NCBI GenBank assembly: GCA_017557665.1
Contig: JAFYYI010000002.1
Span: 62,001 to 126,000, forward strand
DNA: 64,000 nucleotides
From: Muribaculaceae bacterium
GTDB taxonomy: Bacteria; Bacteroidota; Bacteroidia; Bacteroidales; Muribaculaceae
Reading direction: 5' to 3'
A program made the translations under genes and the position numbers. Each line of letters opens with the position of its first letter. Position 1 is the first letter of the stretch. This document shows positions 34,269-37,951 of this stretch, in pieces. The notes under the pieces were generated by a model. That model was not told the DNA's origin and ran no database searches. It was given only the letters and a program-made list of their open reading frames with translations.

Positions 34269-35465
34269 TTAAAAAATCTTGTGACTTAATGTTAAATCAA
34301 TAAGACCAGTAGCAATAGCGCGAGCCTCGGCATTGCTGGCCACGTAGTCGTCATAGCCGGGATGCTCCACATGAGGAACCCTCTCCATCGTTTGCTCGAT
34401 AATCCTGTAGATATCGGTGAATTTGATGTTTCCCTGCAAGAATGATGCCACAGCAATTTCGTTGGCGGCATTCATCACACAGGGTGCCGTGCCTCCCTTG
34501 CGTGCAGCGGCATAGGCCGTGCCCAGCAACGGGAATTTGTCGAAGTCGGGACGCTCCAGTGTCAACATCGCCATGTCCTCGATGGTCATCTTGCGGCAGT
34601 CACTCGCCAGGCGGCCGTCCGGCAGACCCAGGGCATAGCGGATGGGCAGGTGCATGTCGGGCAGACCCAGCTGCGCCTTCACCGAGCCGTCCTTGAAGGC
34701 CACCATCGAGTGGATAATCGACTGGGGATGCACCACAATCTCGATGTGCTGCGGCTCGATGCCGAACAGCCAGCGCGCCTCGATCATCTCAAAGCCCTTG
34801 TTCATCATCGTGGCCGAGTCGATGGTGATTTTGGCACCCATCGACCAGTTGGGATGCTTGAGGGCATCGGCAGCGGTGACGGTCTCCAGACGCTCCTTGG
34901 GCAACGTGCGGAAGGGGCCTCCCGAGGCCGTGAGCCACAGTTTTTCCACGTCCTGCATGCGCTCGCCCATCAGGCACTGGTAGAAGGCGCCATGCTCGCT
35001 GTCAACGGGGTAGAGCACGCTCTCGGAGTCCTGCAACAGGCGGTCAATCAGTTCGCCAGCCACCACCAGGGTCTCCTTGTTGGCCAGGGCAATGCGCTTG
35101 CCAGCGCCGATGGCGGCAATCGTCGATTCCAGGCCGCTGTAGCCCACCATGGCAGTCACCACGGTGTCCACCTCAGGCAGCGTGACAGCCTGGGCAATAG
35201 CATCACTGCCGGTGGCCACCTCGATGTCGGTGTCCTCGAGCGCGTCACGCACATACTCATAGTACTGCTCATCGGCAATGATGACCATGTGGGGACGGAA
35301 TTGGCGGGCCTGCTGGATGAGCAGGTCGGCACTGCTGCGCGCCACCAGCAGCCAGGCATTGAACAGCCCGGGATATTCGGCGATGATGTCGAGCGTCTGT
35401 CGCCCGATGGAGCCAGTGCTGCCCAGCACCGCGATATTTGACTTCGTTGAGCTAAATTCTCCCAT
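34269..35465 (-). CDS. dxr: 1-deoxy-D-xylulose-5-phosphate reductoisomerase
   Basis: A 398-residue cytoplasmic enzyme that converts DXP to 2-C-methyl-D-erythritol 4-phosphate with NADPH, the first committed step of the MEP isoprenoid pathway. The NADPH loop 'GSTGSIGRQTLDII' is near residues 16-29, 'ANKETLVVAGE' near 130, the substrate/metal site 'PVDSEHGAFYQCL' near 153 and 'TMMNKGFEMIEARWLFG' near 222. The length is normal. It precedes rseP by 47 nt. Upstream is a near-consensus TATCTTCG box (35487-35494). Confidence 0.97.
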   Translation of the reverse strand: MGEFSSTKSNIAVLGSTGSIGRQTLDIIAEYPGLFNAWLLVARSSADLLIQQARQFRPHMVIIADEQYYEYVRDALEDTDIEVATGSDAIAQAVTLPEVDTVVTAMVGYSGLESTIAAIGAGKRIALANKETLVVAGELIDRLLQDSESVLYPVDSEHGAFYQCLMGERMQDVEKLWLTASGGPFRTLPKERLETVTAADALKHPNWSMGAKITIDSATMMNKGFEMIEARWLFGIEPQHIEIVVHPQSIIHSMVAFKDGSVKAQLGLPDMHLPIRYALGLPDGRLASDCRKMTIEDMAMLTLERPDFDKFPLLGTAYAAARKGGTAPCVMNAANEIAVASFLQGNIKFTDIYRIIEQTMERVPHVEHPGYDDYVASNAEARAIATGLIDLTLSHKIF

Positions 35466-35561
35466 ACCTGTTTTTGTTACAAACTGCGAAGATACTGCAT
35501 TTTTCCTTCACGGCAAGCAATGGAAAACATATTTTTAGAGTTCAACTGCCTTTGTTTTCGT

Positions 35562-35686
35562 TTTTTCACTTTTTCCACTCTTTCCACCCATTCCACTATA
35601 CACACGGCTTTCCACAAAATTTCCATCCCAGTGTGAAAAACCCACGCACATGTGAACGAGGTGGAAAAGGTGGAAACCGCTGGAAA
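35562..35686. repeat. 9-mer palindromic element A (left copy)
   Basis: It starts with four 9-mers (TTTTTCACT, TTTTCCACT, CTTTCCACC, CATTCCACT) and ends with the inverted form (GAGGTGGAAAAGGTGGAAA). The last 38 nt (35649-35686) are identical to 37680-37717, and the rest is recognisably the same order, so A and B are ~125-bp direct repeats on either side of the ATPase gene. Confidence 0.85.
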
Positions 35687-35851
35687 TTGACGTCCCAAAA
35701 GAAAAAATCTTGCTTCTCAAAGGGGCTGGCATGGTGTGTCACCTAACGGGAGGGTGTGTAATAATTTCGACTCGGTAATATAACCTATCGCACGGGAACC
35801 TTTAGCTCGGCGAAGCCAAATTAAACAAATTTTTAAATTAAAATTGATAAT
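35687..35851. other. Non-coding gap between element A and the 376-bp element
   Basis: About 165 bp with no gene. It holds one GAA-loop hairpin (GGC-GAA-GCC near 35809-35817) and an AT-rich stretch (35820-35850). The final GATAAT is the left half of the flanking duplication of the next element. Confidence 0.5.
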
Positions 35852-36227
35852 AACCCGTTGGCGGAATTACTTGAATAAGTAGAGCCTGCGTAAAAATGCA
35901 GCAGTGACTGACACACTGATGACAAAAACGCCCGAAGGGCGGTCATTTGGATAACCGTGGGTAATGCAATCCGCTGAGCGGTAGCGAAGTGGTTTGCATC
36001 ACCCACGGGAGGACAATACGATCCACGTCGCTGGAAGCGACTCCATTTGGGCCAGTCCAATATGGAGGGGTCGCCTTCAGCGACGGGTCACGGTTCATCA
36101 CACCCCCGATGAATCAGCCGCCTTCGCTCTGCTCAGTTGCCTGATTTATCGGGGGTTATCCAAAGGTCACCCTTCGGGTGTGAATTGACTGGCAAGAATT
36201 CAGATTCTTTAATTCCGCCAACGGGTT
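35852..36227. mobile_element. 376-bp palindromic MITE-like or structured-RNA element
   Basis: Perfect 18-bp terminal inverted repeats (AACCCGTTGGCGGAATTA, 35852-35869, and its complement at 36210-36227) are immediately flanked on both sides by GATAAT (35846-35851, 36228-36233), as a target-site duplication would be. Inside, a second inverted repeat of ~28 nt (35928-35955 with 36155-36182, sharing TTTGGATAAC) encloses three hairpins: 35955-35969/35994-36008, 36026-36046/36062-36085 and 36103-36117/36141-36155. No convincing gene is inside. It is either a non-autonomous transposon or a multibranched RNA or DNA structure. There is no transposase in the window. Confidence 0.75.
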
Positions 36228-36280
36228 GATAATATTATCATATTAATTAAAGTCATGTTAAATCTTGCTATAACATGCCA

Positions 36281-36345
36281 TTTTCCACTTTTCCACTATT
36301 TTCACTTAATATATATAATAGTGAAAAAGGTGGAAAAGTGGAAAA
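36281..36345 (-). terminator. Long 9-mer-built hairpin after the ATPase gene
   Basis: Two 26-nt arms (36281-36306 and 36320-36345) match at 24 positions around a 13-nt AT loop. The arms are made of TTTTCCAC units. It begins 18 bp past the ATPase stop and could act as terminator or mRNA 3' protector; there is only a short T-run. Confidence 0.7.
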
Positions 36346-36362
36346 GGCTGAATGAGGGGTAA

Positions 36363-37418
36363 TTATAAAGATTGGAAGGTAAAATTACTGCCATCGCTGC
36401 TCGTCAGCAAGCCTTGTTCCTTCGCGCTGTTGAACAGTTGGTAGGCTCTGGTCTTGGCTATGCCCAACTGTCCTTGTAACAGGCTGAGCACATTACAGGT
36501 CGTGAGAGGCATGGTGAAGCCCTCAAAGCAGGGAGCCAGCTTCTCATGCAGTTTGGCCTTGTCTTCCTGCTTCTTCAGTTCCAATTGCAGCTGGCGGTCG
36601 GCCGCAGCATCCATGGGCACGGCATTCTCATCAAGCTTGAAACAGATGCCGTCGCAGTTGCGGTGGCGGCTGACGGGGTGTTTCACCTCAAACACGCTGT
36701 CGTGCTTCTCGACGGTGAACACGTCGCTGCACTTCTGATAAAGCATGGTACCCAAGTGGCCCTTCATGTTCTTGTCCAGGCTGCTCTTGTTCTGGTGCAT
36801 GACCACGACGATGCAGCAATTGCAGTTGTTGGCAAGCGTCGCCAGTTTGCTCACGATTTCCTGGCTCTCGGTAACGTCATTGTAGTTGTAGATCAAGTCG
36901 GCAACACCGTCGATGATGACCAGGTCAGGGTGCTCGTGCGTGACGGCACGGCAGATGACGTCATAGCGGGAAGCCTCCCTGTCGCTATAAATGTCCGCCG
37001 GCTGCAAGCAGGCCACCCTACAATCGTCGTGACGGCACGGGGGCGTCATCGTATCGATGGTTTTTTGGACACGCTTGGTGTCGTTACCCGACTGCTCCGT
37101 GTCAAAGAACAGCGCACGTCCTGCCTCCTGCAGGCTGCGACAATTGGCAAACACCGTGCTGCCCAAGAAGATGGCAGTCAAGATGTCACAGAAGAAGGTT
37201 TTACCGTTCTTCCACTTGGCGCTCACGGCCACGAGGTTGCCCTTGGGCATCGTGGGCACACCGCCAATCTCAATGAGATACTCGGGGTCGGGATAATCTA
37301 CGCCTCGTTCGATGAAATAAGGCTTCATGAACTCATCGTAGTCTTTATTCAAGATCTCCTCGGGGGAGAGTTCTGCTTGACGACGAATCTCGTCAATCAT
37401 GTCTGAATAGTAATTCAT
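36363..37418 (-). CDS. RepA/RecA-like AAA_25 ATPase
   Basis: A ~351-residue cytoplasmic ATPase with a RecA fold. The start at 37418 ('MNYYSDMIDEIRRQAEL') is preferred; an in-frame ATG at 37478 is possible. A variant Walker A ('SAKWKNGKTFF') is near residue 68, Walker B 'PDLVIIDGVADLIYN' near 163, and a sensor-like 'CCIVVVMHQNKS' near 197. The C-terminus looks like a winged helix ('LGIAKTRAYQLFNSAKEQG'). Such RepA-like ATPases belong to plasmid replication modules and integrative elements of Bacteroidales. None of the usual partners (integrase, primase, relaxase) is nearby, so it is an orphan, perhaps the remnant of an element. Confidence 0.82.
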   Translation of the reverse strand: MNYYSDMIDEIRRQAELSPEEILNKDYDEFMKPYFIERGVDYPDPEYLIEIGGVPTMPKGNLVAVSAKWKNGKTFFCDILTAIFLGSTVFANCRSLQEAGRALFFDTEQSGNDTKRVQKTIDTMTPPCRHDDCRVACLQPADIYSDREASRYDVICRAVTHEHPDLVIIDGVADLIYNYNDVTESQEIVSKLATLANNCNCCIVVVMHQNKSSLDKNMKGHLGTMLYQKCSDVFTVEKHDSVFEVKHPVSRHRNCDGICFKLDENAVPMDAAADRQLQLELKKQEDKAKLHEKLAPCFEGFTMPLTTCNVLSLLQGQLGIAKTRAYQLFNSAKEQGLLTSSDGSNFTFQSL

Positions 37419-37497
37419 GGTCTTAGATATTATAAAAGATTTATAAAAAGTTCTTGGCTGCTCGCCAGTCATCATCATCGACTGGAAATTGCCGCTG

Positions 37498-37530
37498 CAA
37501 AGTTACAACATGGAAACCCCGAAATCCAAA
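37498..37530 (-). promoter_or_regulatory. Promoter for the RepA-like ATPase gene
   Basis: The minus-strand TAACTTTG (37498-37505) and TTTG (37527-37530) are 21 bp apart. The start site should be near 37492, allowing either ATG (37478 or 37418). Confidence 0.65.
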
Positions 37531-37595
37531 TTTTTACCTAAAAAAGTTTGCAAAACACCAATTATTCAACGTTTGTTCATCGTCAATAATTGGGT

Positions 37596-37717
37596 ATTCC
37601 ACCATTTTCCACTTTTCCACACTTTCCACTATATACGTGCCTTTACACAATTTCCACTCTGGAGTGAACAACCCGTACCCATGTGAACGAGGTGGAAAAG
37701 GTGGAAACCGCTGGAAA
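37596..37717. repeat. 9-mer palindromic element B (right copy)
   Basis: The direct-repeat partner of element A: units TATTCCACC, TTTTCCACT, TTTCCACA, CTTTCCACT, then a ~45-nt middle and the 38-nt segment identical to element A (37680-37717). It lies upstream of the ATPase promoter. Confidence 0.85.
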
Positions 37718-37752
37718 ATACCCCACGAGACATCTACTATCGCCAGTAAAGT

Positions 37753-37951
37753 AAGGTCGAAGACCTTGACAAGGCCAGCGGCCTTGACTTGCGGTAAACC
37801 CAGGGCGCACAGGCCGAAGGTCTGTGTGGCCTGGGGAGAGAACACCCAAAAGATAGGGCCTCGAAGAGGGCCACACACACCAGGCTATGCCCCTGACCAT
37901 AACCCCCTTCAGGCGAGTAATTAATTTGTTTGATTTCTCGCGCGAAGCGCG
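37753..37951. other. Cluster of perfect hairpins with GAA loops
   Basis: In 200 bp: AAGGTC-GAA-GACCTT (37753-37767), CAAGGCC-AGC-GGCCTTG (37770-37786), a 37-nt hairpin whose tip is CC-GAA-GG (37799-37835), GGCCTC-GAA-GAGGGCC (37857-37872) and CGCGC-GAA-GCGCG (37939-37951). GTGTGGCC at ~37825 can also pair with GGCCACAC at ~37869. No gene is present. The region looks like a structured RNA or a cruciform-rich insertion site. Confidence 0.6.

Follow-up and report, generated by a model that had tools for sequence, protein, structure and literature searches.

What kind of element combines perfect terminal repeats with an interior that is paired almost throughout? The question is raised by positions 35852-36227 of the window, as we call the whole 64,000-nucleotide stretch of Muribaculaceae DNA analysed here. 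A sequence-only reading had offered three answers: a non-autonomous transposon whose structure is what its enzyme recognises, an integrated single-stranded DNA element, or a new structured RNA. We put at about 0.85 the probability that the locus holds a mobile element in two layers, a Y1-type, REPIN-like core riding inside an IS982-type MITE. The element is a gene-less DNA parasite with a second, hairpin-rich parasite inside, the hairpins of which match terminal sequences belonging to a transposase family that acts on single-stranded DNA.

Outer ends and the MITE shell

The 376-bp element is bounded by 18-bp inverted repeats, AACCCGTTGGCGGAATTA, at 35852-35869 (plus strand) and 36210-36227 (minus strand), which match perfectly and abut an identical GATAAT on both sides (35846-35851 and 36228-36233), confirming the initial description of its ends. 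Inside them lie the two arms of the carrier, both on the plus strand, at 35870-35924 and 36184-36209; the left arm is common to the composites of genomes G001, G008, G018, G026 and G037 and to the core-less carrier L237, and the right arm is common to composite copies. The pairing of the interior is well above chance, as claimed: the 388-nt stretch folds at -100.8 kcal/mol as DNA against a shuffle mean of -53.8 (z -10.4) and at -190.3 kcal/mol as RNA against -119.9 (z -12.4), none of 100 dinucleotide shuffles folding as well in either form. No transposase was found in the 64-kb window, again in agreement with the earlier reading, the best tblastn match to one IS982 and two Y1 queries having an E value of 0.20. 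A blastn search of the element against phages and plasmids returned no match. An Rfam search of 35300-37800 gave no family at the gathering score, and the matches below threshold (36257-36369, 35563-35686 and 37549-37669) all lie outside the element, mostly on a TTTTCCAC palindrome. The lone viral-contig match to a degenerate hairpin pattern was rejected, its locus having no similarity to the inner part of the element.

The exact 18-bp end is present in at least 120 genome stretches, with many matches close to contig ends; Bacteroidota is named for 115 of the 120 genome stretches among the matches listed (our own count), and six viral contigs carry the end as well. Within the fetched loci the ends form 34 pairs of 100-1037 bp, two of which share one end. 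Three of the elements with these ends measure about 1.02-1.03 kb and carry an ORF of 325 aa (L023), an ORF of 278 aa (L040) or a broken ORF (L083). The protein of the 1024-bp L023 element is assigned to IS982 by NCBIfam NF033520 (250 bits, cut-off 130) and shares 68% identity with the protein of a B. fragilis plasmid copy (L361), which is annotated as IS1187, measures 1030 bp and carries these ends, with 0 mismatches in one and 1 in the other. The duplications expected at other copies were recovered in part: exact duplications, 4 bp or longer, directly adjoin 21 of 51 non-redundant IS982-type end pairs, and among 12 core-bearing entries of 230-420 bp they were seen at four (L129, L136, L142 and the window), the other eight being without them. 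From the ends shared with IS982 and IS1187 and from the duplications, the outer shell is, judged on sequence, an IS982-type (IS1187-like) non-autonomous MITE. It resembles the IS982 family and its IS1187-like MITEs in the 18-bp ends, the parent of about 1.03 kb and the short duplications, and differs from the family in being without a transposase and in having as its interior a structured element of another kind. The composite is multi-copy: G001, the genome of L029 and L042 and a MAG of the uncultured Bacteroidales RUG12435, has 21 stretches that match it, spread over about 17 places; some of these stretches are pieces cut by contig ends.

The inner core and the Y1 transposase loci

The core (35925-36183, plus strand, 259 bp) matches the profile of a REPIN-like, Y1-type module with 265 bits, the window belonging to that profile, and other genomes have copies of it that lack IS982-type ends. 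The description of an inner repeat and three long hairpins from the letters was confirmed, and the consensus of 24 cores, window included, runs P0, H1, H2, H3 and P0'. On the left, the mini-hairpin P0 (CGCCCGAAGGGCG, 35929-35941, plus strand; helix 1 of alignment A1) precedes the left foot, which carries GGTTATCCAAA on the minus strand (35946-35956) as an inverted copy of the right foot. The latter has GGTTATCCAAA on the plus strand (36154-36164) and is followed by the mini-hairpin P0' (CACCCTTCGGGTG, 36168-36180, plus strand; helix 6). The inner repeat is made of these two short mini-hairpins and the 11-nt foot, and its two copies can also pair together. H1 (35955-36008), with a CTGAGC..AGCGAAG loop, has 20 pairs, 11 of them changed on both sides among the 24 cores; H3 (36103-36155), its inverted partner, has 21, with 14 so changed; between them stands H2 (36027-36084; helices 3 and 4), formed by the two inner arms that flank tnpA in Y1-encoding copies, all three hairpins being given on the plus strand.

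In L241, L242 and L246 a 149-aa ORF stands between two half-cores inverted to each other. This ORF is a Y1_Tnp protein by PF01797 (82-90 bits) and belongs to IS200/IS605 by NCBIfam (64-72 bits, cut-off 55); among its relatives of known structure is the ISHp608 transposase (E 1.4e-5), and the RAYT model NF047646 gave the Y1 ORFs 26.6-28.4 bits, below its cut-off of 80. The inner arm GTCGCTGGAGGCGACCCC stands before tnpA in L241 and L242, and its partner, GGGGTCGCCTTCAGCGAC, after it, so that the two, joined without the gene, would make H2. The GGTTA foot recurs next to many Y1-flanking hairpins. A core profile built from 28 cores, none adjoining a Y1 gene, was run on the Y1 loci. Where identity is at least 61%, it matches on both sides of the gene in all 10 loci with two flanks and on the sole remaining side in 2 loci cut by contig ends; at 18 more distant Y1 loci it finds no match (0/18). 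These distant loci have paired structures of their own. At 23 of 26 Y1 loci (4 of the 30, with a flank shorter than 150 nt, were left out) the two gene flanks share a perfect inverted repeat, 12 nt or longer, compared with 1 of 208 mononucleotide shuffles, the three loci without one being L258, L259 and L269. Tandem arrays of end units were seen by eye in L256, L261, L262 and L266, and the match is free of stops in 29 of the 30 fetched Y1 genes. On sequence evidence, the core is most plausibly a Y1-element derivative, REPIN-like and without a transposase. The guess of a single-stranded DNA element holds for this inner layer, the halves of the core being the ends of a Y1 gene. A distant Y1 gene (36% identical) on a Bernardetia plasmid (L363, 289-588) is preceded by several GTTGCAGAGCAAC-type palindromes.

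Enzymes of both kinds were sought in 101 genomes, G001 and 100 relatives. Matches to the element (E <= 1e-3, at most six candidates scored per genome), some of them by an end alone, were found in 21 genomes, an IS982 transposase at E <= 1e-20 in 10, and a Y1 protein at the same threshold in 64, including G007, G019 and G049. At that threshold no IS982 transposase was found in the composite-bearing genomes G001, G018, G026, G037 and G058, and G008, also composite-bearing, has a partial or stop-broken form only. Likewise, no Y1 protein was found at E <= 1e-20 in G001, G037, G053 and G058, and G008, G018, G026 and G041 have Y1 homologs of 39-45% identity only. Core and Y1 co-occur loosely across the 101 genomes. 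A partner gene whose presence tracks with the copies had been anticipated; both enzymes exist among the searched relatives, and neither follows the core or the IS982-type ends closely. Because many of the genomes are in many contigs, which break at repeats, the absence of an enzyme is weak evidence, and copies in hosts without a close enzyme may be relics. End units of the G012 type match 3 of 61 genomes (five in G012, four in G002 and one weak match in G008), a result that fits Y1-specific repeat types except in G002, which has only a Y1 homolog of about 40%.

Carriers of the core and the order of nesting

In G007, G019, G049 and G053, matches were limited to about positions 77-342 of the query, and the core often lies between other inverted ends (type B, approximately CAGGGCAACCGCACCAAAAT), with direct repeats of 9-10 bp read by eye at 5 of 10 type-B end pairs. 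We took a census of carriers on the window and 48 of the 64 loci L177-L240, the remaining 16 being core-less, contig-end pieces, half-cores or weak matches. IS982-type (type-A) ends stand on both sides of 14 of the 49 full or partial cores and on one side of 11, a count biased upward because the searches started from the whole composite; type-B ends stand on both sides of 10 and on one side of 3, and 11 have neither type within 150-200 bp, L180 and L227 keeping decayed pieces of a type-A carrier. In L352 a P0-like remnant is all that lies between the two ends of a 168-bp type-B pair, and no DDE-transposase-like ORF was seen in the type-B loci L352-L356, the ORF list being judged by eye. In L241, L242 and L270, complete Y1 genes, with both families represented, stand between ends of a third type (C, approximately GGTCACCTGCAAAACCGTGTG). 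Direct repeats of 7-8 bp accompany these ends: CGTCTTCA abuts exactly in L242, and the others were read by eye. In the fetched DNA, 1535 kb with some overlap, a search for such ends gave 5 pairs, located at 4 places; 320 kb of shuffled window gave 0. The interiors of the IS982-type MITEs L006 and L065 (243 bp) match the flanks of the second Y1 family (loci L270-L277 and L279), with E values down to 8e-19. Since IS982, B and C ends all occur around Y1-type modules, modules and unrelated ends have been combined repeatedly. Types B and C would, from their ends and direct repeats, be MITEs of double-strand transposons.

These carriers separate the two halves of the first guess. A non-autonomous transposon is present, in the form of the outer IS982-type MITE; an outer enzyme that reads the fold is unsupported, because a core-less 101-bp carrier exists and the core or its halves also lie between other ends. 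That carrier, L237, is of the IS982 type, has TAACT duplications and comes from the same genome (G026) as the filled copy L217; as a short direct repeat spans its joint, it may be either the ancestor state or the product of a deletion between TGGCAAAAAC and TGGCATAAAC. Two further IS982-type MITEs of 100-101 bp, L076 and L080, have other interiors and come from other species. The layers could also have come together in the reverse order, with IS982-type and other ends added around a pre-existing Y1 element, which we regard as unlikely, at perhaps one chance in several: whole Y1 genes do lie between type-C ends with direct repeats of about 7-8 bp (L241, L242, L270), and L237 may be a deletion product, but core-less short IS982-type MITEs exist, L237 with the same arms and L076 and L080 besides.

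On the preferred reading, a Y1-type core within an IS982-type MITE, the core would have moved, or would still move, as folded single-stranded DNA, a Y1 transposase presumably cutting at the GGTTA-containing feet, on the minus strand at H1 and on the plus strand at H3. A short IS982-type MITE would have taken in the core, and the composite would then have been multiplied through its outer 18-bp ends by an IS982 transposase supplied in trans, with duplications of about 5-8 bp.

Other arrangements were observed in passing. In L208 (G053:C4, 300-780) a core is flanked by direct repeats, approximately TTTTTTCCACGCGTGTGCGTGT, which are not MITE ends, and L356 (G053:C28, 936-1499) has two tandem cores beside type-B ends, a possible BIME-like array. 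L039 (6217-6412) and L047 (7114-7355) are other IS982-type MITEs with a mini-hairpin and CTTCGCTTCGCTC-type loops inside, and their interiors are possibly further Y1-type modules.

Covariation of the core and relation to known systems

That the stems change with compensation was borne out in the 24-core alignment, where 28 of 65 pairs are changed on both sides against 11.8 in shuffles. Paired cells amount to 96.3% against 88.8% in shuffles, none of 500 shuffles reached any of five structure measures, and slid controls paired at most 44.1%. The covariation score is 0.253 against 0.110 in shuffles, with kinship among the sequences inflating such scores and a structure taken from the same alignment favouring itself. 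The set comprises 24 of 28 aligned cores, L178, L219, L220 and L223 having been dropped by hand for resembling kept copies. The loops (CTGAGC..AGCGAAG) and feet are kept while the stems vary. We propose that the Y1 enzyme would read shape, loop and foot rather than stem sequence, which may be why the structure is kept.

Selection could in principle act on an RNA fold instead, the core being a structured non-coding RNA or a bidirectional terminator carried on MITEs, an account to which we give a small share of the probability. The RNA fold (z -12.4) and the strong covariation suit it, as does H2, where G-T cells outnumber A-C cells by 21 to 3 on the plus strand, but two columns of related sequences account for most of this bias. 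For H1 and H3, no clear preference for either strand is seen outside one fixed position (G-T against A-C, 13 to 8 and 8 to 9). At the fixed position the wobble is on opposite strands, G-T on the plus strand in H3 (23/24) and A-C on the plus strand in H1 (17/24), as expected because H1 and H3 are an inverted pair. Compared with the other aligned copies, H1 is inverted in L228 and the apex of H3 in L226, as if flipped within the palindrome, which also speaks against an RNA, as does the lack of an Rfam match in 35300-37800. With the core halves being the ends of a Y1 transposase gene and the fixed wobble on opposite strands, a new structured RNA is not needed. Least probable is an ordinary IS982 MITE with a functionless remnant as its interior, made to covary by palindrome-perfecting template switching: such switching is known in bacterial palindromes, the inversions in L228 and L226 are present and many copies are truncated, yet one plan persists across carriers and genomes with loops and feet kept while stems vary, and halves or other paired structures stand at Y1 genes, 29 of 30 of which have no stop inside the match.

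The Y1 proteins are closest to TnpA-Y1 subclass 1.2, given in the available portion of Quentin et al. 2018 (PMC6006769) as short proteins with a Y---Q--HH signature, mostly from Cyanobacteria and Bacteroidetes, with REP entered as 'no', typical terminal IS200 structures generally absent and IS properties absent. Similarly to that portrait, the proteins here have 149 aa against a median of 148, come from Bacteroidetes and carry Y---Q--HH in all 30 Y1 loci. D-H-[IV]-H is present in 18 of the 30, including all 12 close homologs, the second Y1 family having N-H-[IV]-H. In contrast to the same portion of that account, these loci have paired multi-hairpin ends and dispersed core copies; they also differ in the W motif, WQ in only 2 of 30 loci, with WG in 22, WA in 4 and none matched by the pattern in 2. 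Because of the rarity of WQ and the prevalence of WG, we call the proteins, judged by motifs, subclass-1.2-like rather than members. No paper tying repeats to subclass 1.2 was found in the open-access library searched.

It is a tentative suggestion, which we hold at rather below even odds, that a Y1 group described without a repeat partner owns elaborate multi-hairpin repeats, spread chiefly inside the MITEs of unrelated transposons. If true, such elements would live as nesting dolls served by two enzymes, one recognising folded single strands and one the outer ends, with at least three end types (one IS982 and two presumed double-strand) mixed with two Y1 families. The core hairpins are candidate substrates, orderable as oligonucleotides, for an orphan-like group of HUH enzymes, which makes the role of the subclass-1.2-like Y1 proteins directly testable. 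The two-layer reading explains a class of Bacteroidales intergenic DNA that is highly folded and rich in repeats, and the element, 376 bp long, is a natural case of a single unit on which two mechanisms of transposition may act.

As far as the accessible parts of the sources go, the core resembles the REP, BIME and REPIN repeats associated with RAYTs in its inverted hairpin pair, REPtron-like flanks, tandem arrays and dispersed copies (PMC2817692, PMC3116915, PMC8266576). It differs from REPs, which are 20-40 bp long in the part of PMC3733652 available, in its hairpins of about 54 nt, its mini-hairpin on each side and its middle hairpin, and in having a 3' GGTTA foot where the REP foot, by those accounts, is of the 5' GTAG type (GT[AG]G). 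A classical REP with its RAYT was rejected on this 3' foot and on the score below the NF047646 cut-off. TnpA-REP enzymes, according to the accessible part of PMC8266576, bind folded hairpins strand-specifically through loops and irregular stems, and serve as the model for the mechanism proposed for the core. The PATEs of Haloquadratum, as far as the text of PMC3119063 at hand describes them, are likewise transposase-less relatives of IS200/IS605-type elements with near-terminal palindromes and nested mobile elements. They are without terminal inverted repeats or duplications, and MITEs and SMRs insert into them, whereas here the Y1-type core sits within the MITE. Because nesting and transposase-less IS200/IS605 relatives are thus known in Haloquadratum, at least from that part of the source, we regard the kind as known and the variant as new. 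The portion of PMC5771137 available has nothing on such nesting in P. gingivalis MITEs.

The search for an empty site at the window locus turned up a counterpart in gene order only. The test covered 10 dxr loci, with 1.5-kb flanks, from 65 matching genomes; none of the 10 has a core, and L317 alone has the same neighbours on both sides, in the order rseP-dxr-AAA_25, without the element. The intergenic DNA of L317 is too diverged to show an exact empty site, and none turned up for the window locus or for a lone core. The AAA_25 ATPase gene of the window (36363-37478, minus strand) has inverted repeats of the TTTTCCAC / GTGGAAAA kind on both sides (35571-35668, 36281-36345 and 37605-37699). Similar sequence precedes dxr both in a relative that has an AAA_25 gene (L317) and in one that has none (L312), and the repeats may mark another mobile cassette.
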